From a virus, in IMG/VR virus record IMGVR_UViG_3300025141_000175, positions 1 through 47,061 of that record: a stretch of 47,061 nucleotides of DNA; one strand, given 5' to 3'. Both the position numbers and the translations under genes were made by a program. Every line of letters starts with the position of its first letter. Positions within the stretch are counted from its first letter, which is position 1. Shown piece after piece: positions 5,151-21,994 of the stretch. Under the pieces are notes generated by a model. It did not search any database. It was given only the letters and a program-made list of their open reading frames with translations, and had not been told where the DNA came from.

Positions 5151-5942
5151 TCAGCCTCGCGGATCTAAGGTTGGGCGGATGCCGACGACCCATAGCAGAT
5201 CGCCTTCTCTGAGGAACGGTAGGCACTTGGCCTCGTAGTGCGGGTCGAGGTTCAAGTCCTCGAGATGGTGGTACTTGGCGGGCCGGTCGTAGGGGCCTTT
5301 GCTGTGGACCACAGTCACTCTCTTCTCCCAATCCTCGGGTAGCCATCGCTTGATTCTCATCAGCGGCACGTTGCCGACACAGACCGCCCAGATGGGGATA
5401 TGCGACATCAGGTTCATGCCATGGTACACGCCCGCCAACGTCATGCCGCTCCCCAACACCAGCAGCACCCGCCGCACGCCCGGGGGGATGTTGACGGCCT
5501 GGGCGAGATTCGACTTGAAAGCCTCTTCAGATTCGAGCCCCATCGGTAGCATGGAGTAGCCTCGCTCGTCGGCGATTTTGCGGGCCTGGTAGGCACAGTA
5601 GCTGCCGTAGCCGGGGTTGACTTGCACCAGCTCCACACCGAGCCCCCGGGCGAATTCCATCTCGGGGGTTTCGGCCCCTTGTGCCGTCACGCAGACGGCC
5701 TTGATTCCACGCCGCTGGGCGAGCAATCCAATGTAGCCAGCCTGTGGAGATTTGCGGTGGCCGACGGTCGTAACGCCCCGGGTCTCGCCTTCCATGAGTA
5801 GGTCGGCGGAGCGGGCCTTGCCGCCCCGGGCCCCGTTGCGGTTGAACAGGTCGTCCCGCTTGACCCAGACGTTGCGGTCCTCGCACATGCGGACGGGGGT
5901 GATGGCTTGTGGGTCTTGCATGTCGGGGGCGTCGAGGCTCAT
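5151..5942 (-). CDS. Fold-type II PLP-dependent enzyme (ACC deaminase / cysteine desulfhydrase-like)
   Basis: A 263-residue protein with the landmarks of fold-type II pyridoxal phosphate enzymes. VWVKRDDLF (25-33) and GGKARSADLL (40-49) match the family pattern around the catalytic lysine, here Lys42, with one residue fewer than the usual GGNK. LGSGMTLAGVYHGMN (163-177) matches the glycine-rich loop that holds the cofactor phosphate. It is shorter than cellular homologues (about 330 residues), so the C-terminal part is reduced. The substrate is unknown. Its neighbour at 6248 is a radical SAM enzyme, and the two could act on the same small molecule or nucleotide. Its start overlaps the upstream gene by ATGA. 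Confidence 0.75.
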   Translation of the reverse strand: MSLDAPDMQDPQAITPVRMCEDRNVWVKRDDLFNRNGARGGKARSADLLMEGETRGVTTVGHRKSPQAGYIGLLAQRRGIKAVCVTAQGAETPEMEFARGLGVELVQVNPGYGSYCAYQARKIADERGYSMLPMGLESEEAFKSNLAQAVNIPPGVRRVLLVLGSGMTLAGVYHGMNLMSHIPIWAVCVGNVPLMRIKRWLPEDWEKRVTVVHSKGPYDRPAKYHHLEDLNLDPHYEAKCLPFLREGDLLWVVGIRPTLDPRG

Positions 5943-6247: not shown

Positions 6248-7342
6248 TCACTCGGGTTCGGCCGGGTCGGCCGGGGGGGGTTGCTCTTCGCCGCCGAACA
6301 GCCCCATCTGGCTTTCGGTCTCGACGCCCAAGGCTATCCGCAGGGGCCGGGCCTTGGCGAGCCCCTCGACGAGCCGGTGCATAGGCAAGGGGCCGCACAT
6401 GGTATTGCCCGCCCCGCTCTGGAACAGCGAGGCTATCGCGGTGCCGGTGTTGGGGCTCTCTTGTGCCTCGGTGGTTGCGTAGCCACCGTAGTACAGATGG
6501 TTCAGGTTACAGCGGTTGTGGACGAACCCGGGGACGCCCGAAGTGCCGCAGCAGTTCAGGTCGTCGCCGAGCGGTCGATACCGATTCTCCGCAGCGTAGA
6601 ACGCAAGGCCCGCCGCCCGGGCCGCCGCCCGGATAGTCAACAGGCCGTCCTTCATCTCGTTGTCAGGGTACACCAAATCGGCCCCGAGCTTCTCCATGCC
6701 GGGCTCGGCCATGTCGCGGTTCATTGCCTTGTATCCCTCCACCGTGACGCCGAAGCAGTTGACCGCCGCCAGGGCCGGAATCGTCTCGCGGCATATCTCG
6801 TCCACGGCACTCAACATCAATGGCTGCATCCGGGCCAGCACCCGCTTGCAGACCTTCACGAGCTTGCCGACAATCTCGATCCGCTGGGCACAGGTCGGGG
6901 CCCCCCGCTCCCGCACGTCGTAGCTGGAGGCGAGCAGCGAGACCTGGCCGACGAAATTGCACTTGGCGAACATCTCGAGGTATTCGTCTGTGCCCGCCAG
7001 GGCCCCTTTGGTGCTGAACACGCAGGGGTATTGGCTCTCCGCGAAGATCTGCAGGCACTCCCAGGACCGCCGGTGCTCCAGCTCGCAGGGCTGGAAGGGG
7101 TCGCTCATTCCGCCCCAATGCAAGGGGATCTTCCAGTCGCACCAGTTGGTGGTCTGGGAGCGTTTGCCTTCCACGAAGTTGCGGAGATCCAGGGCCGTCT
7201 CGTAGGGGATGACGATCTCCCGGTCCTCGCCGACCCGCTTCCGGTTGGCGAAGCAATAGTCGCACCCGTGGGTGCAGCCCCGGTAGGTATCGAACCGGAT
7301 CGGTAGGTCACACAGGATCAACTGGCTTCCGCAATTAGGCAT
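6248..7342 (-). CDS. Radical SAM protein, SPL-like
   Basis: A 364-residue protein with the classical radical SAM cluster motif RGCTHGCDYCFANRKR, in which Cys23, Cys27 and Cys30 bind a 4Fe-4S cluster. The surrounding layout (DTYRGCTHGCDYCFA, then HWGGMSDPFQP, then STKG) resembles spore-photoproduct-lyase-like radical SAM proteins. That family repairs or modifies thymine, but many members are uncharacterised. The ATG at 7342 is preferred because GGAG lies about 8 bases upstream; it overlaps the end of the upstream gene by 25 bp. The C-terminal tail is Pro/Glu-rich. Possible roles include DNA base modification or repair of UV damage; neither can be decided here. Confidence 0.8.
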   Translation of the reverse strand: MPNCGSQLILCDLPIRFDTYRGCTHGCDYCFANRKRVGEDREIVIPYETALDLRNFVEGKRSQTTNWCDWKIPLHWGGMSDPFQPCELEHRRSWECLQIFAESQYPCVFSTKGALAGTDEYLEMFAKCNFVGQVSLLASSYDVRERGAPTCAQRIEIVGKLVKVCKRVLARMQPLMLSAVDEICRETIPALAAVNCFGVTVEGYKAMNRDMAEPGMEKLGADLVYPDNEMKDGLLTIRAAARAAGLAFYAAENRYRPLGDDLNCCGTSGVPGFVHNRCNLNHLYYGGYATTEAQESPNTGTAIASLFQSGAGNTMCGPLPMHRLVEGLAKARPLRIALGVETESQMGLFGGEEQPPPADPAEPE

Positions 7343-11836: not shown

Positions 11837-11859
11837 ATCTGTTTTCCTTCCACGCTCCC

Positions 11860-11906
11860 CCGCCGGTGCCGCCCCTGCGAGAGCAGGAGTATGCGGCCCG
11901 ACAGCG
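11860..11906. repeat. 47 bp repeat with hairpin, copy A
   Basis: This copy differs from copy B (11937-11983) at only four positions. On the plus strand, GCCGC pairs with GCGGC and an inner CCUGC pairs with GCAGG around a GAGA loop, leaving an AGUAU bulge. Two of the four changes restore the same pair (C-G here, U-A in copy B), so the folded shape seems to be kept. Confidence 0.65.
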
Positions 11907-11936
11907 AGAGGATAGACCACGCTGGTTCAACACCCG

Positions 11937-11983
11937 CCGCCGGTGCCGCCTCTGCGATAGCAGAAGTATGCGGCCCGACAGTG
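11937..11983. repeat. 47 bp repeat with hairpin, copy B
   Basis: This is the second copy of the 11860 element, 30 bp further on. The inner stem is UCUGC with GCAGA around GAUA. The closing pair is U-A instead of C-G, a compensatory change. It lies upstream of the divergent promoter pair, so it could be an origin or protein-binding element as well as an RNA structure. Confidence 0.65.
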
Positions 11984-12359: not shown

Positions 12360-12401
12360 CCCCGAGGCGTACTTTTTTTAACTTTTTTTAGCCAATTTCC
12401 G

Positions 12402-12446
12402 GAATTAGGGGTTGTCTCCTAAAGTTTATCGGGTATAGTACCGATA
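12402..12446 (+). promoter_or_regulatory. Promoter P1 with operator
   Basis: TTGTCT (12412-12417), 16 bp, TATAGT (12434-12439). The inverted repeat TATCGG...CCGATA (12427-12446, 8 bp apart) covers the -10 box, so a dimeric repressor bound there would block polymerase. An A/T-rich block with two ACTTTTTTTA runs lies just upstream and may act as an UP element. It is divergent from PL. Confidence 0.8.
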
Positions 12447-12958
12447 GTGAAGTTAGGAAATACGCTATGAAACACAGCACAAAAGCCAACCAAGACAAAA
12501 ACCAAAAGGAGCTCACCATGGCCACAACAGCAATCCAAGTCACACTCGCCGAACGCACAGTCGCCGATCTGTACAACATGATCGCCGGTGTCCGGGAAGC
12601 CGCAGTCGCCAAGCATCCTCGCGGTGCCGGTGGCAACTACAGGTTGGTCGCGGTTTCGGCCGACCGGGTTCTTTCCCACGAGTTTGGCTGCGAGCCGCTG
12701 TTCCTGATCGACGCCTGCCCGTCCAAGAAGCAGATCGTCGGCTACGCCAAAGACATGGCCGAGCGGTTCCCCGAAGTAGACGAATTCGTCATCGACCTCG
12801 ACGCCGACATCTACAGCCGCGAGATGGGCCACGACGACAAAGGGGCCTTCATCGAGCTCGAGCAGACCGGCGAGGGGTTCGATTGCACCGTGGCAGCCGT
12901 GACCCGGGGCCCCGCACCGACGACGCCCCCCCCGGCCCCCAAGACTCCCAAGGTCGCC
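12402..12958 (+). repeat. 557 bp duplicated segment, copy 1
   Basis: Bases 12402-12958 match 14248-14804 with a single difference that I can see (12452 g / 14298 a). The unit covers the promoter, the 5' leader and the first 147 codons of the gene. Such identity, including silent sites, implies a very recent duplication or ongoing gene conversion. Confidence 0.92.
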
Positions 12959-13573: not shown

Positions 13574-13575
13574 CA

Positions 13576-13638
13576 GCCGAAACGCCCCCCGGGGCGTCGT
13601 GGCCGGTTGCCCTCCGGCCGCCTGATGATGGCAGGGCA
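13576..13638 (+). ncRNA. Type II hammerhead ribozyme HHR1
   Basis: The conserved parts in order are: stem II strand GCC (13576-13578), GAAA (13579-13582), stem III (13582-13597, A-U closed, C/G arms), C17 at 13598, stem I of 8 bp with loop UUGCCCU (13599-13621), CUGAUGA (13622-13628), one extra U, then GGC (13630-13632). Cleavage is expected between 13598 and 13599, leaving a 60 nt leader for the next gene. The loop can pair with AGGGCA at 13633-13638 (6 bp). It starts 3 nt after the stop codon. The extra U at 13629 is a bulge that could slow activity. Confidence 0.9.
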
Positions 13639-13658
13639 CAACACGAAAGGATACGACA

Positions 13659-14228
13659 ATGAGCGACAACCAACGAGTAACGGTCGGCGAGCTGGAGCGG
13701 CAAAGTGTACTGATCGCCGAGGGCCTGGGCCTGAGCTACAACGAGGGGCTGAACGTGCTCTTCGATGCGGTGCGGGTCCGCGAGACAATCGAAGTGCTCG
13801 GCGACCCGGAGACGGTCGCCCCGGCCGACGCGGAGAATGTCCTGGCTGGCGTCAAGCAGATCCTCCAGGCCCGGGCCGCCCGGCCGGGCCCCCGCCAGAA
13901 CCCAGAGGAAGAAGCATGGCGTGCGGCACATCCTGCCGAGGCCAAGGCATTCGACCTGGGGCTCGCCCGGGGCCGCGAACAGGGCGACTTCCTCGCCACC
14001 GAGCGGGCCAGGAGCGAGGCCTACGACTCCGGCCGCAAGCAAGGCCTGAAGGAAGCCTTGCAACATGGAGAGCAAACAGCCTGGCGGGCCCAGAAGCTGG
14101 AGCTGGCGTTGGTGGATCTGGTGGCACACATGCGTAACGAGGCGAACTGGGCCGACCACGTCGTCGGCGGGCTCATCGAGATCAAGGTCGACGCGGATGC
14201 ACTGGAGCGGGCCCTCGAACTGATTTAA
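13659..14228 (+). CDS. Helical protein of unknown function
   Basis: A 189-residue, mainly alpha-helical protein rich in Ala, Glu and Arg (ARGREQGDFLATERARSEAY). No known family is recognised. It is the second and last gene of the P1 unit, separated from the metallopeptidase gene by ribozyme HHR1. The ATG at 13659 has AAAGGA 9 bases upstream. Its stop codon TAA is the first base triplet of the next promoter element (TAACTTTTTTTACG), so P2 abuts the gene. Confidence 0.7.
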   Translation: MSDNQRVTVGELERQSVLIAEGLGLSYNEGLNVLFDAVRVRETIEVLGDPETVAPADAENVLAGVKQILQARAARPGPRQNPEEEAWRAAHPAEAKAFDLGLARGREQGDFLATERARSEAYDSGRKQGLKEALQHGEQTAWRAQKLELALVDLVAHMRNEANWADHVVGGLIEIKVDADALERALELI

Positions 14229-14247
14229 CTTTTTTTACGAATTTCAC

Positions 14248-14292
14248 GAATTAGGGGTTGTCTCCTAAAGTTTATCGGGTATAGTACCGATA
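14248..14292 (+). promoter_or_regulatory. Promoter P2 with operator
   Basis: TTGTCT (14258-14263), 16 bp, TATAGT (14280-14285), with the inverted repeat TATCGG/CCGATA at 14273-14292 over the -10 box. The upstream block TTAACTTTTTTTACGAATTT holds two copies of ACGAATT. It is identical to P1 from 14248 on, apart from one base. Confidence 0.8.
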
Positions 14293-14804
14293 GTGAAATT
14301 AGGAAATACGCTATGAAACACAGCACAAAAGCCAACCAAGACAAAAACCAAAAGGAGCTCACCATGGCCACAACAGCAATCCAAGTCACACTCGCCGAAC
14401 GCACAGTCGCCGATCTGTACAACATGATCGCCGGTGTCCGGGAAGCCGCAGTCGCCAAGCATCCTCGCGGTGCCGGTGGCAACTACAGGTTGGTCGCGGT
14501 TTCGGCCGACCGGGTTCTTTCCCACGAGTTTGGCTGCGAGCCGCTGTTCCTGATCGACGCCTGCCCGTCCAAGAAGCAGATCGTCGGCTACGCCAAAGAC
14601 ATGGCCGAGCGGTTCCCCGAAGTAGACGAATTCGTCATCGACCTCGACGCCGACATCTACAGCCGCGAGATGGGCCACGACGACAAAGGGGCCTTCATCG
14701 AGCTCGAGCAGACCGGCGAGGGGTTCGATTGCACCGTGGCAGCCGTGACCCGGGGCCCCGCACCGACGACGCCCCCCCCGGCCCCCAAGACTCCCAAGGT
14801 CGCC
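14248..14804 (+). repeat. 557 bp duplicated segment, copy 2
   Basis: This is the second copy of 12402-12958, offset by 1846 bp. It ends in the shared linker sequence GTCGCC, where the two genes diverge into different C-terminal domains. The copy point within a Pro-rich linker suggests domain swapping by recombination. Confidence 0.92.
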
Positions 14805-15086
14805 AAGGCCTCGGTCAGCGACGTTCCGCACGGGCTGTCCGATGGCGGGCTGGAGCTGTTCACCGACCTGGCCGAGGACGCCGGCAACTGGAGCGGTCAG
14901 CCCCTGTTCGGCGGCAACGTCGGTTGCGATCCCAGCGACCGGGGCTGGCTCACCGAGCTGAAGAAGAAAGGCCTCGTGACGACGTTCGCCGACGACGAAG
15001 ACAGCTCGCTGAGCTGGGTCGTATTCACCGACGCTGGCCGGGCCTTGGCCGACAAGCTGGGCACCACCCTGGAAGACTATCGCTGA
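14364..15086 (+). CDS. Shared N-terminal domain fused to a winged-helix-like C-terminal domain
   Basis: A 240-residue protein. Residues 1-147 are identical to those of the metallopeptidase fusion at 12518, including an acidic EVDEFVIDLDADI strand. The last ~85 residues look like a small helical domain with a beta wing (RGWLTELKKKGLVTTFADDE, then SWVVFTDAGRALADKLG), similar to the C-terminal wing of DNA-binding or adaptor domains. The common N-terminus may target both proteins to the same partner. The ATG at 14364 has AAAAGGAG 8 bases upstream. It is the first gene of the P2 unit. Confidence 0.7.
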   Translation: MATTAIQVTLAERTVADLYNMIAGVREAAVAKHPRGAGGNYRLVAVSADRVLSHEFGCEPLFLIDACPSKKQIVGYAKDMAERFPEVDEFVIDLDADIYSREMGHDDKGAFIELEQTGEGFDCTVAAVTRGPAPTTPPPAPKTPKVAKASVSDVPHGLSDGGLELFTDLAEDAGNWSGQPLFGGNVGCDPSDRGWLTELKKKGLVTTFADDEDSSLSWVVFTDAGRALADKLGTTLEDYR

Positions 15087-15088
15087 AC

Positions 15089-15159
15089 GCCGAAACGGCC
15101 CCCGCCCCGGGGGGGCCGTCATCGCTGGCTGGCTACCAGCGGTCTGACGAGGCAAGCCA
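15089..15159 (+). ncRNA. Type II hammerhead ribozyme HHR2
   Basis: GCC (15089-15091), GAAA (15092-15095), a 9 bp stem III closing at U15119, cleavage C15120, stem I of 8 bp with loop CUGGCUA (15121-15143), CUGACGA (15144-15150) and GGC (15151-15153). Bases AGCCA (15155-15159) can pair with UGGCU in the loop. The predicted cut is 15120/15121, 60 nt before the next ATG. Stem I arms are the same as in HHR5, but the loop and its partner differ together. Confidence 0.93.
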
Positions 15160-15180
15160 ACAACCTAAAGGAGCTCGAAA

Positions 15181-15876
15181 ATGGCATCAGTCGAAACAAA
15201 AACGCAAGCATGGGAAGCTGTTCTGTCCTACGCAACCTACCACGCAAAGACCGTCGAATCGCACGCCCGCCGGGTCTTCGACGGGGTCGCCAAGGTCCGC
15301 GACGACGAGGGGTTCGTGCTCTCCGACGACCAGATCGACTGGGGATACGTCTGCGGCGAAACCAACCGCATCATCCAACAGCAGGTCAACGCCTCGGCCC
15401 GCACCAGCGAGCTGGTGGCATTCTATGGCGAGGCCCGGGTGCTCGACCTGACCAAAGACGACGCAACGAAGATCTGGGCCGACACGGCCGCCGAGGTCGC
15501 CGCCGAGATCGAAGAGAACCCAGCCGACATCGGCGTCAATGACGCCTGTCACTGGGCAACGGTTTCCAGCCGGGCCAACCGGGCCCTGCACCAGCTCGCA
15601 ATGACCAGGCGGGCCAATGGCGGCGACGAGCCCCGGGCCGCAACAGCCCTCTGGGAAGAGCTGGGCAAGATGGTCGACGCCCCGGGCTCCGGGCTGCAAC
15701 TGAAGCAGGTCCGCCCGGCAATCGACGCCACCCAAGATCTCGTCGCCGGGCACACCCGGTTGCTGAATGCGGCCGTGGTGATCCTGACGGATCCGAAGAT
15801 CAAATCATGGCTGACCGCCAACGATATGAATGCCTTCATGCAGCTCGAGAAGGCATACCTCCAGGCGATCAAATGA
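15181..15876 (+). CDS. Helical protein of unknown function
   Basis: A 231-residue, predicted all-helical protein (many Ala, Glu, Thr; two Cys). I recognise no family. It lies between two ribozymes (HHR2 and HHR3) in the P2 unit, so its mature message would be monocistronic. The ATG at 15181 has AAAGGAGCTC 4 bases upstream of the start, the same motif used throughout the cassette. Confidence 0.7.
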   Translation: MASVETKTQAWEAVLSYATYHAKTVESHARRVFDGVAKVRDDEGFVLSDDQIDWGYVCGETNRIIQQQVNASARTSELVAFYGEARVLDLTKDDATKIWADTAAEVAAEIEENPADIGVNDACHWATVSSRANRALHQLAMTRRANGGDEPRAATALWEELGKMVDAPGSGLQLKQVRPAIDATQDLVAGHTRLLNAAVVILTDPKIKSWLTANDMNAFMQLEKAYLQAIK

Positions 15877-15879
15877 GAC

Positions 15880-15945
15880 GCCGAAACGCCCGGCCCCCCG
15901 GGCGTCGGCCGCAGCTGGCTACTGTGGCCCTGACGAGGCAAGCCG
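15880..15945 (+). ncRNA. Type II hammerhead ribozyme HHR3
   Basis: GCC (15880-15882), GAAA (15883-15886), stem III of 6 bp, U15905 and cleavage C15906. Stem I has 8 bp (GGCCGCAG with CUGUGGCC, one G-U) and loop CUGGCUA, 15907-15929; then CUGACGA (15930-15936) and GGC (15937-15939). AGCC(G) at 15941-15945 pairs with the loop. The predicted cut is 15906/15907, 62 nt before the next ATG. Confidence 0.93.
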
Positions 15946-15968
15946 AGAACCAACAAGGAGATCCGATC

Positions 15969-16415
15969 ATGGCAAAGACAACGAACAACACAACCCGCGA
16001 CGAGACGGAAGCAGAGTTTGCGGGCACGCTGCAGCTTCTGCTGGACCGCTGCGAGGCCAGCGTGCTCCGGGCGAAGAAGCTCGAGCTGGAGCTGAAGAAC
16101 GCCAAGGTCAGTCGCGAACGTGCGGCCGCCCGGGCCCGTGAGCTCGAGACCGAACTCGGCGTCCGGACCGAGGCGAGCAACAAGAAGATCGAAAGCCTGA
16201 GCCCGCCCCGGTTGCTCGAGGCTGCCACCGAGGTCCTGCGGATCCTGGCGAACAGCAGCAACCTGGTCGAAGGTGCACAGATCGGCAAGGTCCGCAACAG
16301 CTCGGGCCTGGACCGGATGGAGCCCCTGCTCCGCGAGGCAATCGAGGCCGCAGGCTACACCATCACCATCGACTACCACGGGGTCCACCTGCAGGGCCCC
16401 TCCGAGGAAAATTAA
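15969..16415 (+). CDS. Coiled-coil protein of unknown function
   Basis: A 148-residue protein. Residues ~15-75 are a long charged coiled coil (RAKKLELELKNAKVSRERAA). The C-terminal ~70 residues form a small mixed domain (SGLDRMEPLLREAIEAAGY). A dimeric adaptor is plausible; no family is recognised. The ATG at 15969 is preferred to the earlier in-frame start at 15807 because it has AAGGAGA 8 bases upstream and follows HHR3. Its TAA stop opens the P3 element. Confidence 0.65.
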   Translation: MAKTTNNTTRDETEAEFAGTLQLLLDRCEASVLRAKKLELELKNAKVSRERAAARARELETELGVRTEASNKKIESLSPPRLLEAATEVLRILANSSNLVEGAQIGKVRNSSGLDRMEPLLREAIEAAGYTITIDYHGVHLQGPSEEN

Positions 16416-16480
16416 CTTTTTTTACGAATTTCACGAATTAGGGGTTGTCTCCCTAAAGTTATCGGGTATACTCGCCGATA
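16412..16480 (+). promoter_or_regulatory. Promoter P3 with operator
   Basis: The element starts at the stop codon (TAACTTTTTTTACG). TTGTCT (16445-16450), 16 bp, TATACT (16467-16472). Operator arms TATCGG (16460-16465) and CCGATA (16475-16480) are kept although their spacer is 9 bp, not 8, and the bases between them changed. This supports selection on the arms. Confidence 0.8.
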
Positions 16481-16533
16481 GTTAGGTTAGTGAAACGCTA
16501 CGAAACACAGGGCAAACCAAAAGGAAACGAACA

Positions 16534-16896
16534 ATGGCAACGATCCAAGCAAAACTGGCAGAGGCAATGACAGTGGCCGACCTTATCGCAGAGCTGAAGT
16601 ATCTCGATCCTGACGCAGCAGTCGTGTTTGGCTGCGACTATGGCGACCACTCCCACACCGAGCAGGCCCTGCAGGTCCAGGACGTTGAGCAGATCGACGC
16701 CCGGGGCCTGGTGGAATCGGCCTACAGCAACAGCCGCATGGCCGTGAAGCGAGACGGTGAAGAATACTGCGATTGCGAAGAACGCAGCCCCGGCGAATGT
16801 GCCGATTGCCCCGAGCTGGAATCTTGCCCCTGGGCGATTCGGGACGACGAGGACGACGAGCCGCAGAAGGTCGTCGTGCTACGCAGCAGCGACTAA
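16534..16896 (+). CDS. Small phage protein, Cys-rich C-terminus
   Basis: A 120-residue protein. The N-terminus (MTVADLIAELKYLDPDAAVVF) resembles a small domain often seen in phage proteins of unknown role. The second half has a Cys cluster (YCDCEE, GECADCPELESC) that could bind zinc or iron, and a very acidic DDEDDE stretch. It is the first gene of the P3 unit. Function is unknown; an acidic early protein could be a DNA mimic or partner-binding protein, but nothing proves it. Confidence 0.65.
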   Translation: MATIQAKLAEAMTVADLIAELKYLDPDAAVVFGCDYGDHSHTEQALQVQDVEQIDARGLVESAYSNSRMAVKRDGEEYCDCEERSPGECADCPELESCPWAIRDDEDDEPQKVVVLRSSD

Positions 16897-16898
16897 CA

Positions 16899-16961
16899 GC
16901 CGAAACGCCCGGGCCCCCCGGGCGTCGGTCGGGTTGTCCCCCGGCCCTGACGAGGCAGACA
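16899..16961 (+). ncRNA. Type II hammerhead ribozyme HHR4
   Basis: GCC (16899-16901), GAAA (16902-16905), stem III, U16925, cleavage C16926, stem I of 7 bp with a UUGUCC loop (16927-16946), CUGACGA (16947-16953) and GGC (16954-16956). GACA at 16958-16961 pairs with UGUC in the loop. Loop and partner both differ from all other copies yet remain complementary. The predicted cut is 16926/16927, 57 nt before the next ATG. Confidence 0.92.
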
Positions 16962-16983
16962 CCTCACTGGAAGGAGCTCAATT

Positions 16984-17727
16984 ATGAACGGTTTGATGCT
17001 ACATTGTGGGTCGGTTGAAGTGGGCCGCGAGCAGCTGGCTACGTATCCTGTGCCCGCCGCTACGGAAACCTGGCACCCAGTGCCCCACCACCAGCTCGTC
17101 GCCACGGTCGAGACGAGCCTCGAGGCCTCGGGGTTGCAGGTCGTCGAGCAGGGCCACGGGGTCTGGGGAGACGGGGCCCGCTACTTTGGCATGCTCGAGG
17201 TCCGGAACGGCGAGAACGCCGACGACTACACCATGGTCATCGGCATCCGTAACTCGCACGACCAGTCGTATCCCGCCAGCCTGGCGATGGGTGCGATGGT
17301 GTTCGTTTGCGACAACCTTTCGTTCTCCGGCGAGGTCACAATCGGCCGCCGCCACACCCGGTTCATCGAACGTGATCTGCCGGGCATGGTCACCAAGACC
17401 GTCGCCCAGCTCACCGAGGCCCGCCAGTTTCAGGACCGCCGGTTCGACGCCTATCGCCAGACGGGGCTGGGCGAAGTCCAGGCCCACGATCTGGTTGTGC
17501 GGGCCCTGGACGCCCAGGTGCTTCCGGCCTCGGCAATCCCCAAGGTTCTCCAGCAGTGGCGGACGCCGGACCACCCCGAGTTTGTTGAAGGTGGCAAGAC
17601 GGCCTGGCGGATGTTTAACGCATTCACCGAGACCCTGAAGGGCCGCTCGCTGCTCGAGCTGCCAGCTCGCACCCAGAAGCTCCACGGGCTGCTGGACGCC
17701 GAGAGCGGGCTCGTTGCTGCCGCGTAG
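16984..17727 (+). CDS. DUF932-family phage/plasmid protein
   Basis: A 247-residue protein. The central region (GARYFGMLEV, then YTMVIGIRNSHDQSYPASLA and VFVCDNLSFSGEV) is the signature of DUF932 proteins found on phages and plasmids. Their biochemical role is unknown. It lies between HHR4 and HHR5 in the P3 unit. The ATG at 16984 has AAGGAGCTC 5 bases upstream. The last base of its TAG stop is the first base of HHR5, so a ribosome at the stop codon would cover the ribozyme. Confidence 0.85.
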   Translation: MNGLMLHCGSVEVGREQLATYPVPAATETWHPVPHHQLVATVETSLEASGLQVVEQGHGVWGDGARYFGMLEVRNGENADDYTMVIGIRNSHDQSYPASLAMGAMVFVCDNLSFSGEVTIGRRHTRFIERDLPGMVTKTVAQLTEARQFQDRRFDAYRQTGLGEVQAHDLVVRALDAQVLPASAIPKVLQQWRTPDHPEFVEGGKTAWRMFNAFTETLKGRSLLELPARTQKLHGLLDAESGLVAAA

Positions 17728-17793
17728 CCGAAACGCCCCCGCCGGGGGGCGTCATCGCTGGGAGCCCTCCAGCGGTCTGAAGATGGCAGGGCA
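17727..17793 (+). ncRNA. Type II hammerhead ribozyme HHR5
   Basis: GCC (17727-17729, overlapping the G of the TAG stop), GAAA (17730-17733), stem III, U17752, cleavage C17753, stem I of 8 bp with loop GAGCCCU (17754-17776), CUGAAGA (17777-17783), an extra U, and GGC (17785-17787). AGGGC at 17788-17792 pairs with GCCCU in the loop. The cut 17753/17754 would leave a 61 nt leader. Like HHR1 it has the bulged U. Confidence 0.9.
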
Positions 17794-17814
17794 AACAACC
17801 GAAAGGAGCTACCG

Positions 17815-18207
17815 ATGGGCATGCGACGAAACCCTGTGAACGGGAAGATGAGGATCGACCTCGAAGGCGAATGCGGCAACGCATTCTGGCTGCTGGCGAT
17901 GGCACAACAGATCGCCTTGGAACAAGGCAAGGATGGCGTGGCAATCCAGGCCCGGATGGTGGCGTCCGACTACGACGATCTGCAGAAGGTCATGCTCGAA
18001 GAGCTCGGCGACCACGTCGAATTCGCCCCCCCGCCGGGCGAGCTGTGCCTGCACGAAGATCTGGCCGAGCTGAAGGATGGGACGGTCATCTGTGGCGGTT
18101 GCCTCCGCCGGTTCGAGGTCGTCAAGGATGGCGACGGGAACGATGTTGCGATGGTGGACAAGCATCTGGCTGCGGGCCCGGGCCGCCGCCCCGAGGAAGG
18201 AAAGTAA
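17815..18207 (+). CDS. Small protein with zinc-ribbon-like end
   Basis: A 130-residue protein. The N-terminal half is helical; the second half has C..H and CGGC residues (GELCLHEDLAELKDGTVICGGCLRRFEV) that could form a zinc ribbon. It is the last gene of the P3 unit. The ATG at 17815 has AAAGGAG 7 bases upstream. Its TAA stop begins the P4 promoter element. No family is recognised. Confidence 0.65.
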   Translation: MGMRRNPVNGKMRIDLEGECGNAFWLLAMAQQIALEQGKDGVAIQARMVASDYDDLQKVMLEELGDHVEFAPPPGELCLHEDLAELKDGTVICGGCLRRFEVVKDGDGNDVAMVDKHLAAGPGRRPEEGK

Positions 18208-18272
18208 CTTTTTTTACGAATTTCACGAATTAGGGGTTGTCTCCCTAAAGTTATCGGGTATACTCGCCGATA
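18204..18272 (+). promoter_or_regulatory. Promoter P4 with operator
   Basis: Nearly identical to P3. TTGTCT (18237-18242), 16 bp, TATACT (18259-18264). Operator arms are TATCGG (18252-18257) and CCGATA (18267-18272). The element again starts at the stop codon of the gene before it. Confidence 0.8.
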
Positions 18273-18330
18273 GTTAAGTTAGTTAAACGCTATGAAACAC
18301 AGTGCAAACACAACACAAGGGAACAACACA

Positions 18331-18576
18331 ATGGCAAACGCAACAATCAACAAACTGCACGTCAATGCACAGCATCTCACATTCGTGAAGATTGACCGCT
18401 TCGTCACCGAGGCCAGCGACATCGGGATCCGCCCCGGTCAGCGGTTGCCAGACCAACTCGTGATCGAACCCCCCATCGCCAACGGGCTGTCGTTCGTGCC
18501 GCACTCCCAGGACGACTGCAGCTTCACCTACGTCCAGGCCAACGGGCTGGTACGCATCCGCGTGTTCAACGACTAA
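18331..18576 (+). CDS. Small protein of unknown function
   Basis: An 81-residue protein (MANATINKLHVNAQHLTFVK...), probably beta-rich. It is the first gene of the P4 unit. The ATG at 18331 has AAGGGAA 8 bases upstream; the ATG at 18292 lies in the conserved leader and is not favoured. No family is recognised. Confidence 0.6.
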   Translation: MANATINKLHVNAQHLTFVKIDRFVTEASDIGIRPGQRLPDQLVIEPPIANGLSFVPHSQDDCSFTYVQANGLVRIRVFND

Positions 18577-18577
18577 C

Positions 18578-18645
18578 GCCGAAACGGCCCCCCCCCGGGG
18601 GCCGTCGGCCGCAGCTGGCTACTGCGACCCTGACGAGGCAAGCCA
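18578..18645 (+). ncRNA. Type II hammerhead ribozyme HHR6
   Basis: GCC (18578-18580), GAAA (18581-18584), stem III, U18605, cleavage C18606, stem I with 7 of 8 pairs (one C-A mismatch at the third pair) and loop CUGGCUA (18607-18629), CUGACGA (18630-18636) and GGC (18637-18639). AGCCA (18641-18645) pairs with the loop. The cut 18606/18607 leaves a 55 nt leader. Confidence 0.9.
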
Positions 18646-18661
18646 AACAAGGAACCTGGAC

Positions 18662-19018
18662 ATGGCAACAACCGAAACATACCAACGCAACAACATCGGC
18701 GGAGGCCAGTTCAACGTGAAGGTCGTGCGGGGTTGTGCCACGGTCGAGGAAATAACCGACGCAGTCGACGGCCGGGTGCTGCACTATGGCCAGTGGCCCA
18801 AGACCGACGAAGATCGCCGCTGCTGGCAGCACTGGTCGCTGGACTTCGGCCGCGAGTTTGCTTCGGTCACAAGTGCCAAGTCCTGGATCAGCAAGGCCGC
18901 CAACAAGCAAGGTTGGGACGGCAGCCGCGATTGGCTGGTCATCGAGGCCAACGTCGCAGGCTACCGTCACAGCATCAGCGTCTATCACCGCGAACCGGCC
19001 GCCCCGGTCGCCCACTAA
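18662..19018 (+). CDS. Small protein of unknown function
   Basis: A 118-residue protein with many Trp (QHWSLDFGREF, KQGWDGSRDWLVI). It lies between HHR6 and the next gene. The 25 bp gap to the next gene contains no ribozyme, so these two would stay on one message after processing. That may mean their products are needed together. The start has AAGGAA 9 bases upstream. Family unknown. Confidence 0.65.
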   Translation: MATTETYQRNNIGGGQFNVKVVRGCATVEEITDAVDGRVLHYGQWPKTDEDRRCWQHWSLDFGREFASVTSAKSWISKAANKQGWDGSRDWLVIEANVAGYRHSISVYHREPAAPVAH

Positions 19019-19043
19019 TCTGCTAACCAGAAGGAGCTCGAAA

Positions 19044-19448
19044 ATGGCAAGCACAGCAATGAAACGCGAACTGGCAATGACCGACATGGGAAGCATCCTC
19101 AAGCAGCTCGGCCCGGCCGAGGCTACTCGGGTGCTGGCGAATGCTGTCCGGAAATACGCAGCCTTCACCCCCGAAGTGACCGAGCGTCATATGCTGGTGA
19201 TGTCGGCCGAGCTCGAGCAGGCCGCCGATAAGATCTCCGACTACGACACCGTCATGCGGGAAGCACAGAAGGCCGAGTATCCCGGCGACGCCTGCCACAT
19301 CTGCGGCCGCTGGACAGAGGCTAGCGACTGCGATGCGGGGATCGAGATGAGCCGCGAGGATTACATGATGGGCCACGCCGACGGGGTGTACCAAAAGGCC
19401 GGGCTGTTCCACACTGCAGAGGGCTGCCGCTGCCACGGGGGCGGTTGA
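19044..19448 (+). CDS. Helical protein with Cys-rich end; shares a module with 21195 gene
   Basis: A 134-residue protein. Residues 1-85 are helical. The C-terminus holds Cys/His pairs (CHICGRW, SDCDAG, GCRCHGG) and the segment CDAGIEMSREDYMMGHADGV. That segment is encoded by a 68 bp block repeated exactly in the gene at 21195. The ATG at 19044 has AAGGAGCTC 4 bases upstream, and the gene is paired with the one before it. A zinc site is plausible; function is unknown. Confidence 0.65.
   Translation: MASTAMKRELAMTDMGSILKQLGPAEATRVLANAVRKYAAFTPEVTERHMLVMSAELEQAADKISDYDTVMREAQKAEYPGDACHICGRWTEASDCDAGIEMSREDYMMGHADGVYQKAGLFHTAEGCRCHGGG
19328..19395 (+). repeat. 68 bp exact repeat, copy 1 (with 21278-21345)
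   Basis: The block encodes CDAGIEMSREDYMMGHADGVYQ and is identical in both copies, including third codon positions. It is used in the same reading frame in both genes. This suggests a recent copy of a functional peptide module. Confidence 0.9.
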
Positions 19449-19450
19449 CC

Positions 19451-19516
19451 GCCGAAACGCCCGGGCCCCCGGGCGTCGGCCACAGCTGGCTACTGTGGCC
19501 CTGACGAGGCAAGCCA
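19451..19516 (+). ncRNA. Type II hammerhead ribozyme HHR7
   Basis: GCC (19451-19453), GAAA (19454-19457), stem III, U19476, cleavage C19477, a perfect 8 bp stem I (GGCCACAG with CUGUGGCC) with loop CUGGCUA (19478-19500), CUGACGA (19501-19507) and GGC (19508-19510). AGCCA (19512-19516) pairs with the loop. The cut 19477/19478 leaves a 55 nt leader. This is the cleanest copy. Confidence 0.94.
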
Positions 19517-19532
19517 ACCAAGGAGCTCGGTC

Positions 19533-19703
19533 ATGAATATCAACAGACGCTGGTGGAGGTTCGATTGGTTCGGGTTTAACCGCAATGGGGGATGGGTGCG
19601 AATCCTGCAGCTCCGCTACACGAAACAGCGGAGGCTGTTCCTGTTCGTTTCGACATGGGCCCGGCCCCGCATCTATACCGATGCCGCACTCGCCCCTCGG
19701 TAG
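19533..19703 (+). CDS. 56-residue basic aromatic protein
   Basis: The frame runs ATG to TAG and reads MNINRRWWRFDWFGFNRNGG at its start, with AAGGAGCTC 5 bases upstream. It is rich in Trp, Phe and Arg. A ribozyme stands on each side (HHR7 and HHR8), so the mature message would hold this gene alone. The strong ribosome binding site and position argue that it is real. Function is unknown. Confidence 0.7.
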   Translation: MNINRRWWRFDWFGFNRNGGWVRILQLRYTKQRRLFLFVSTWARPRIYTDAALAPR

Positions 19704-19766
19704 CCGAAACGCCCGGCCCCCGGGCGTCCGCTGTGGCTGGCTACCACAACGCTGATGAGGCAAGCC
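19703..19766 (+). ncRNA. Type II hammerhead ribozyme HHR8
   Basis: GCC (19703-19705, sharing G19703 with the TAG stop), GAAA (19706-19709), stem III, U19727, cleavage C19728, stem I with 7 of 8 pairs (C-A at pair 3, as in HHR6) and loop CUGGCUA (19729-19751), CUGAUGA (19752-19758) and GGC (19759-19761). AGCC (19763-19766) pairs with the loop. The cut 19728/19729 leaves a 59 nt leader. Confidence 0.9.
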
Positions 19767-19787
19767 GAAAACCAAAGGAGATTCGAT

Positions 19788-20243: not shown

Positions 20244-20249
20244 CCACCG

Positions 20250-20265
20250 GGGCCCCCGGGCCCCA
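20250..20265 (+). other. GC hairpin at a junction that lacks a ribozyme
   Basis: Between the stop at 20243 and the next start at 20286 there is only GGGGCCCCCGGGCCCC, which can fold like stem III of the ribozymes. The GAAA and CUGANGA cores are absent. It may be a ribozyme remnant or a plain mRNA-stabilising hairpin. Confidence 0.4.
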
Positions 20266-21198: not shown

Positions 21199-21437
21199 AC
21201 ATCCCCGACGAGCTGACACTCGAGCGGACGGACTGGCTTTCGTTGTTGCGGTTGCTGAACCCCCGGGGGGTCTGCTGCTGCGATGCGGGGATCGAGATGA
21301 GCCGCGAGGATTACATGATGGGCCACGCCGACGGGGTGTACCAAATGGACATGACGGGCTGCGTCGAGCTGACGCCGTTCGGGGCTTGGCTGGCCGACCA
21401 ACTCATCAACCACCAAGACGCATGCGGGCCGAATTGA
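21195..21437 (+). CDS. Small protein sharing a module with the 19044 gene
   Basis: An 80-residue protein, coupled by ATGA to the gene before it. It carries CCCDAGIEMSREDYMMGH, encoded by the 68 bp block identical to 19328-19395. The rest is helical with a C-terminal FGAWLADQLINHQDA. Function is unknown. Confidence 0.65.
   Translation: MNIPDELTLERTDWLSLLRLLNPRGVCCCDAGIEMSREDYMMGHADGVYQMDMTGCVELTPFGAWLADQLINHQDACGPN
21278..21345 (+). repeat. 68 bp exact repeat, copy 2 (with 19328-19395)
   Basis: This is the second copy of the block described at 19328, in the same frame. Confidence 0.9.
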
Positions 21438-21718: not shown

Positions 21719-21994
21719 TCACCGCTGGCGGTTGCCGATATCCGCCGGTGGGTCGCAACAACCCTGTCGCTCGTGGGCGGGGTTGTAGTCTTTTGGTATC
21801 CGCTGCGGTGGCAAGCTGGCAGCCGGGGCCTCTGGTGAAGGCTCTGAGAACGCAAAACTTACATGGCCGACGGTCCTGCCGTTGACCACCAAGGGGATCT
21901 GCCCGAAAGCCTCGGCCGCCTTGATATGCAACGAACCGAACGGGGTCTCGTAGCGGACCTCGCGGCCCCCCGCCGGGGTTGGTTTCATCATCAT
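21719..21994 (-). CDS. Last gene of the rightmost (structural) operon, unknown function
   Basis: A 91-residue protein starting with three Met in a row (ATGATGATG). The first overlaps the stop of the upstream gene as ATGA. It has a short beta-rich domain (YETPFGSLHIKAAEAFGQIP) and a Pro-rich tail. It is converging with the XRE gene with a 1 bp gap. Function is unknown. Confidence 0.6.
   Translation of the reverse strand: MMMKPTPAGGREVRYETPFGSLHIKAAEAFGQIPLVVNGRTVGHVSFAFSEPSPEAPAASLPPQRIPKDYNPAHERQGCCDPPADIGNRQR

Follow-up and report, generated by a model that had tools for sequence, protein, structure and literature searches.

A phage gene cassette of 7 kb, part of the IMG/VR virus record IMGVR_UViG_3300025141_000175, contains eight type II hammerhead ribozymes (HHR1 to HHR8), all on the + strand. 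To judge from their sequences, the eight elements are probably functional and would cut the transcripts of the cassette between the stop codon of one gene and the ribosome-binding site of the next. The window, i.e. the whole stretch of DNA that was analysed, is the complete record of 47,061 bases and is classed as virus. It also encodes a terminase, a portal protein, a head protease and a replicative helicase, in agreement with the phage setting proposed in an initial annotation of the window.

A cmscan search with the type II hammerhead family RF02276 (Rfam release 15) located all eight elements where the initial annotation had placed them and gave them the same identity. Five of them exceed the gathering score of 37. 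The other three, HHR3, HHR6 and HHR1, stay below it by less than 2 bits (36.8, 36.5 and 35.4, with E-values of 0.0006–0.0013) and cover the full length of the model, and the best match in the genome outside the array scored 12.3 bits, i.e. chance level. The core in the permuted order GAAA – stem III – GUC – stem I – CUGANGA and the A–U pair closing stem III are kept in all eight copies, as had been noted before. No further copies were found on either strand of the 47,061-base record, either with a regular expression for the core (GAAA...CUGANGA) or with RF02276. A structural motif finder gave 208 matches (159 unique) in the window and the viral loci described below, whereas 1.2 Mb of control sequence, reversed or complemented, gave no match. 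Taken singly, an element of the window is no different from other members of RF02276: it has the same core, the permutation with an open stem II, and in all eight copies a pseudoknot that joins loop I to the 3′ tail. Stem III is almost uniformly G–C. The stem III hairpins comprise 6–9 pairs, almost all of them G–C, and have folding energies of −10 to −21 kcal/mol.

HHR1 (13576–13638, RF02276 match 13575–13640) lies between genes g17 and g18 and starts 2 nt past the stop codon, with a predicted cut after C13598. HHR2 (15089–15159, match 15088–15161, score 39.5) separates g19 from g20, also 2 nt past the stop, and would be cut after C15120. Between g20 and g21, HHR3 (15880–15945, match 15879–15948) begins 3 nt past the stop and has its predicted cut after C15906. 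HHR4 (16899–16961, match 16898–16964, score 46.4) is found at the g22/g23 junction, 2 nt past the stop and with a predicted cut after C16926, and HHR5 (17727–17793, match 17726–17795, score 43.4) at g23/g24, where the ribozyme begins with the G of the TAG stop and the cut is predicted after C17753. HHR6 (18578–18645, match 18577–18647), between g25 and g26, starts 1 nt past the stop with a predicted cut after C18606. The last two flank a 56-aa open reading frame (ORF, 19533–19703): HHR7 (19451–19516, match 19450–19518, score 38.4) stands between g27 and this ORF, 2 nt past the stop of g27 and with a predicted cut after C19477, and HHR8 (19703–19766, match 19702–19770, score 40.0) stands between the ORF and g28, its first base being the G of the TAG stop that ends at 19703 and its predicted cut following C19728. 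HHR3 and HHR7 are 95% identical, although their neighbouring genes are unrelated and the 60 nt on either side of them agree no better than chance (23%); the ribozyme therefore seems to move, or to undergo conversion, as a compact unit.

Selection has acted on the folded structure, since stem I and the pseudoknot of loop I with the tail covary between copies. Pairs were counted on anchored stems, with stem I anchored between C17 and CUGANGA; a MAFFT alignment of the eight copies misplaces stem II at an extra inserted U. Canonical pairs make up 96% of stem I in the eight copies, compared to a mean of 58% when the 3′ strands are shuffled among the copies, and none of 500 shuffles reached 96%. Both-sided changes between copies occur at each of the seven pairs. 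For stem III, counted in seven copies, the values are 100% canonical and 87% after shuffling. Such shuffles ignore kinship among the copies, and the double changes are the direct evidence. The pseudoknot, which joins loop I to the tail after stem II, can form with 4–6 bp in every copy and exists in several versions: UGGCU/AGCC(A/G) in five copies (UGGCU/AGCCA in HHR2), GCCC/GGGC in two (HHR5 and, lengthened to UGCCCU/AGGGCA, HHR1) and UGUC/GACA in HHR4. A loop and its own tail pair over 5.0 bp on average, and a loop and tail from different classes over 2.8 bp. These compensatory changes in stems and pseudoknots, as read from the sequences, show that the structure is preserved and not the DNA sequence.

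Measured from the end of the upstream stop codon, all eight ribozymes start between −1 and +3 nt. From the predicted cut sites to the AUG of the following genes the leaders would be 60, 60, 62, 57, 61, 55, 55 and 59 nt long, which bears out exactly the range of 55–62 nt given in the initial annotation, and a Shine–Dalgarno sequence of the AAGGA(G) type precedes each of the eight downstream genes. Hammerhead cleavage produces a 2′,3′-cyclic phosphate and a 5′-OH end. The upstream RNA would thus end 25–34 nt past its stop codon, with the cyclic phosphate and with the GC hairpin of stem III one base from the end, and the downstream RNA would start with a 5′-OH and the stem I hairpin, followed by the rest of a leader of 55–62 nt that contains a separate Shine–Dalgarno sequence.

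The ribozymes lie between codirectional genes in the order of transcription and flank individual genes. The cassette reads P1–g17–HHR1–g18–P2–g19–HHR2–g20–HHR3–g21–P3–g22–HHR4–g23–HHR5–g24–P4–g25–HHR6–g26–g27–HHR7–ORF(56 aa)–HHR8–g28–(GC hairpin)–g29, in which the four copies of a putative σ70-like promoter, TTGTCT-16-TATA(G/C)T, located inside repeats, are labelled P1 to P4. P1 (12412–12439, TTGTCT-16-TATAGT) precedes g17 and is part of a repeat, D1, which is 98% identical to the copy at 14230. The same promoter-like sequence is found before g19 (P2, 14258–14285), and the variant TTGTCT-16-TATACT before g22 (P3, 16445–16472) and g25 (P4, 18237–18264), all on the + strand. The initial annotation had described the ribozymes as placed one per gene junction. 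This holds for nearly every junction within transcription units, a ribozyme being present at eight of the nine such junctions up to 20243, but not for the three promoter junctions (14228, 16415 and 18207), the g26/g27 junction (19018/19044) or the g28/g29 junction (20243/20286). The g26/g27 junction, the only ribozyme-free one within a unit before 20243, consists of 25 nt (19019–19043, + strand) with a Shine–Dalgarno sequence. At the g28/g29 junction there is a bare GC hairpin (20247–20264, + strand) that resembles stem III and has no ribozyme core; it is perhaps a decayed ribozyme copy. No strong terminator was seen between the units P1–P4 of the cassette, and a terminator-like hairpin with a T-rich tail (21758–21796, + strand) follows the last + strand gene, before convergent genes on the − strand.

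With four promoters and no clear terminator between them, overlapping long RNAs would be made, which the ribozymes would dice into messages of one or two genes. Read-through from P1 would yield the pieces g17, g18+g19, g20, g21+g22, g23, g24+g25, g26+g27, the 56-aa ORF, and g28 onward, and transcripts starting at P2, P3 and P4 would give g19, g22 and g25 alone. P1 read-through together with the P2–P4 starts therefore predicts one- and two-gene mRNAs as products, and the earlier expectation of mostly single-gene mRNAs is approximate: the cuts are placed between genes as expected, but read-through of the internal promoters gives a mixture. Every gene would receive a uniform leader and trailer whatever lies next to it, akin to engineered ribozyme insulators. 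The type II permutation is relevant here, because it follows from the topology that only in this type does the cut fall between two closed hairpins, so that both products are hairpin-capped; type I caps the upstream product only and type III the downstream product only. Dicing into messages with uniform structured ends is the best supported reading, in view of the type II topology, the tight placement at stop codons and the independent ribosome-binding sites. The identity of the ribozymes, their covariation and pseudoknots, and their positions and leaders are shown by the sequence itself. Cleavage in the cell is inferred, and it may be that the hairpin-capped ends alter mRNA stability or uncouple translation and that ribosomes gate the ribozymes.

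The window was compared with other viral sequences in IMG/VR. A pattern scan gave at least 120 stretches, and 100 whole records were then scanned with Rfam models. Among the matches listed, 79 of these 100 records have a type II hammerhead at E ≤ 1e-4, mostly in one to three copies, and six records have four or more: G006 (20 by Rfam and 23 by structural motif), G050 (9), G093 (6), and G001, G008 and G011 (4 each). With eight copies the window ranks third in this set. A pattern scan of genome contigs gave mostly chance matches, with 14 loci passing the structural filter. The longest array, in G006 (IMGVR_UViG_3300033112_000310, locus L131, 112 kb), has 23 type II copies over 13 kb, from 878 to about 13,930, and 20 of its 22 intervals hold exactly one ORF. 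Its covariation is stronger than that in the window (stem I 95% canonical and 53% after shuffling, stem III 99% and 74%), and its pseudoknots occur as GGCU/AGCC, GGUC/GACC and GGGG/CCCC. A promoter scan found no promoter-like site on the coding strand inside this array, and a terminator scan found one weak coding-strand match inside it, located within a gene. Among the proteins encoded by G006 are a DNA methyltransferase, a helicase, a RecT-like protein and a partial terminase-like one. The array includes genes for ArdC (anti-restriction) and Ku, and a DUF4942 gene lies within or directly behind it. That G006 is viral rests mainly on IMG/VR. In two further records we noticed five type I hammerheads by structural motif, perhaps a type I array (L034, IMGVR_UViG_3300031366_000001), and a tRNA gene (L104, 9139–9204) that follows a type II array, with six copies in the whole record.

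The abutment on stop codons is not confined to the window. Among the matches listed, 147 viral type II copies had enough flanking sequence to be compared with ORFs of at least 40 codons. In 88 of them the distance between an ORF stop and the ribozyme is −2 to +2 nt, and in a further 21 it is +3 to +7, together 109 of 147 (74%). The corresponding counts were 42 of 1470 (2.9%) for random positions in the same loci and 1 of 147 for the reverse strand. When records were reduced to one copy each after collapse by flank similarity, 46 of 64 copies, 62 of which have an upstream ORF, still had a stop within −4 to +7. In a parallel scan with small samples none of 13 type III hammerheads and a few type I hammerheads abutted a stop codon. 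Downstream of 98 viral type II copies the genes vary widely, and the few Pfam matches among them include Mu transposase, ArdA, AcrIC5, DUF932, GemA, HTH regulators and a MazF-like toxin. Since stop abutment is common and the downstream genes are diverse, it is the position of the ribozyme that is conserved and not the identity of the gene. Our impression is that early, accessory and anti-defence genes tend to be found near type II hammerheads.

Several observations weigh against the proposal that the eight elements cut the cassette transcripts. Stem II has only about 3 bp, and in both HHR6 and HHR8 the third pair of stem I is a C–A mismatch. Equilibrium folding of the junctions with their flanks, in a model that includes neither the pseudoknot nor co-transcriptional order, retains stem III (p 0.90–0.98), but stem I (mean p 0.00–0.96) faces competition from alternative pairings in several copies. 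No close relatives of the phage were found in viral contigs with a cassette protein, the DUF932 protein, the terminase or the promoter sequence as queries. Perreault et al. found four of their 18 tested consensus hammerheads to be inactive (PMC3088659).

Three other roles can be considered for active ribozymes. The first, which we regard as unlikely, is that they are mainly regulated switches with a cleavage rate that responds to Mg2+, a ligand or translation, by which individual genes are tuned. A ribozyme starting 0–3 nt from the stop codon would have its 5′ half under the terminating ribosome and its pseudoknot tail near the Shine–Dalgarno sequence, so translation could gate folding, and regulated cleavage was raised as a possibility by Perreault et al. 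(PMC3088659). However, neither an extra domain nor an aptamer-like insertion is present, the loops being short and one compact plan being common to all eight, and the neighbouring genes show no relation to each other beyond two local duplications. A second and less probable role is that of a dispersing module, either a selfish element or a recombination site, which aids swaps of accessory genes and in which RNA cleavage is kept but secondary. The likeness of HHR3 and HHR7 between flanks at chance level and the great diversity of genes beside type II hammerheads in other viruses would fit this, but the compensatory changes indicate that structure is what is maintained, and a recombination site would need sequence identity, whereas the loops differ. 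The third role, in our opinion very improbable, concerns genes with a ribozyme on both sides, of which there are three (15181–15876, 16984–17727 and 19533–19703). Once released, these could be ligated by host RtcB or by the back-reaction of the ribozyme into circular single-gene mRNAs, and the end chemistry of hammerhead cleavage suits RtcB ligation. RtcB was, however, not found among the virus-encoded genes of the window record or of 16 other hammerhead-bearing virus records, which weakens circularisation driven by the phage, and circular or spliced products of phage arrays were looked for and not detected by Perreault et al. (PMC3088659). That the motifs are catalytically inactive relics, or GC-rich hairpins that arose by chance, to which three copies just under the gathering score and the competing folds of stem I in isolation might point, is hardly credible given eight perfect cores, zero control matches, compensatory changes and covarying pseudoknots.

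The genes between the ribozymes are mutually unrelated, except for an N-terminal duplication in g17 and g19 and a 22-aa repeat in g27 and g30. The first 170 residues of g17 and g19 are 97% identical, followed by complete divergence; this common N-terminus is due to a 300-nt direct repeat (98%, 12384–12683 and 14230–14529) that carries the promoter and the N-terminal coding sequence. The C-terminal part of g17 has a weak SprT-like match with a HELGH motif. A 71-nt repeat (99%, 19328–19398 and 21278–21348) inside g27 and g30 gives the 22 identical residues. A DUF932 protein is encoded in the window, and PADLOC returned only weak HTH matches for the cassette proteins. A nucleotide comparison of the whole cassette with GenBank phages gave only a 33-nt match, in coding sequence of Gordonia phages, which was judged to be low-complexity chance. 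Upstream of P1, a divergent intergenic region contains two near-identical 48-nt repeats with internal symmetry (11857–11904 and 11934–11981; CTGCGAGAGCAG and CTGCGATAGCAG), which may be a regulator-binding or RNA element. In the replication region, on the − strand, a gene for a PLP-dependent enzyme-like protein adjoins one with a weak radical-SAM match (5151–5942 and 6248–7342). A direct terminal repeat was looked for in the window and not found.

RiboJ is an engineered insulator in which a hammerhead stands between promoter and coding sequence. By analogy, cleavage in the cassette would fix the 5′ leader independently of upstream transcription; unlike RiboJ, the elements of the window are natural, of type II and located at nearly every gene junction, and they would also shape the 3′ end of the upstream message. 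Viroid, satellite and retrozyme hammerheads have the same catalytic fold and chemistry but process multimers of one replicating RNA unit, whereas in the window unrelated protein genes separate the copies, so that there is no repeated unit. A further precedent is provided by prophage clusters. Perreault et al. described in 2011 hammerheads clustered around single genes in prophages and proposed that they cut transcripts into gene-length mRNAs; tandem arrays were found to cleave in vitro, and that of Agrobacterium also in E. coli (PMC3088659). These clusters, including the triple array around ardA of A. tumefaciens, likewise place several hammerheads in one phage region beside single genes. The arrangements described there are multiple and triple, whereas in the window eight copies, all of the same type, occupy eight of the nine junctions inside units up to 20243, each abutting a stop, with promoters repeated between units. 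The initial annotation was not aware of any description of a regular transcript-cutting array. Clustered, gene-flanking, transcript-cutting hammerheads were already reported in that paper, so that the new points are the scale (8 copies here, 23 in G006) and the stop-codon rule, and not a new kind of thing. Neither the rule nor arrays of this length were reported in the literature searched, subscription journals being mostly outside its coverage.

The role of prokaryotic hammerheads was an open question in a review of 2017 (PMC6155905), and in 2023 an enrichment near Mu-like phage genes was described and the reason for the association of ribozymes with genes was called unknown (PMC10085705). 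An unusually long and regular array helps to test what hammerhead clusters, first described in 2011 (PMC3088659), are for. Together the locus, the G006 array and the stop-codon rule lead to concrete predictions: eight known bases should carry 5′-OH ends, multigene RNA should be lost, and each cut should have a hairpin to its left and to its right. In combination with the IMG/VR comparison they make the long-standing question of the role of prokaryotic hammerheads directly testable. The topology also suggests a reason for the use of the type II layout, as it is the sole permutation that leaves a hairpin on both new ends. It is possible, though we propose this only tentatively, that phage type II hammerheads form a dedicated and general operon-dicing system, fixed at stop codons so that terminating ribosomes gate folding, with both ends hairpin-capped, which would turn 8 (here) to 23 (G006) neighbouring genes into separately stable mRNAs from shared transcripts. 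If true, such a general system would answer what prokaryotic hammerheads do.

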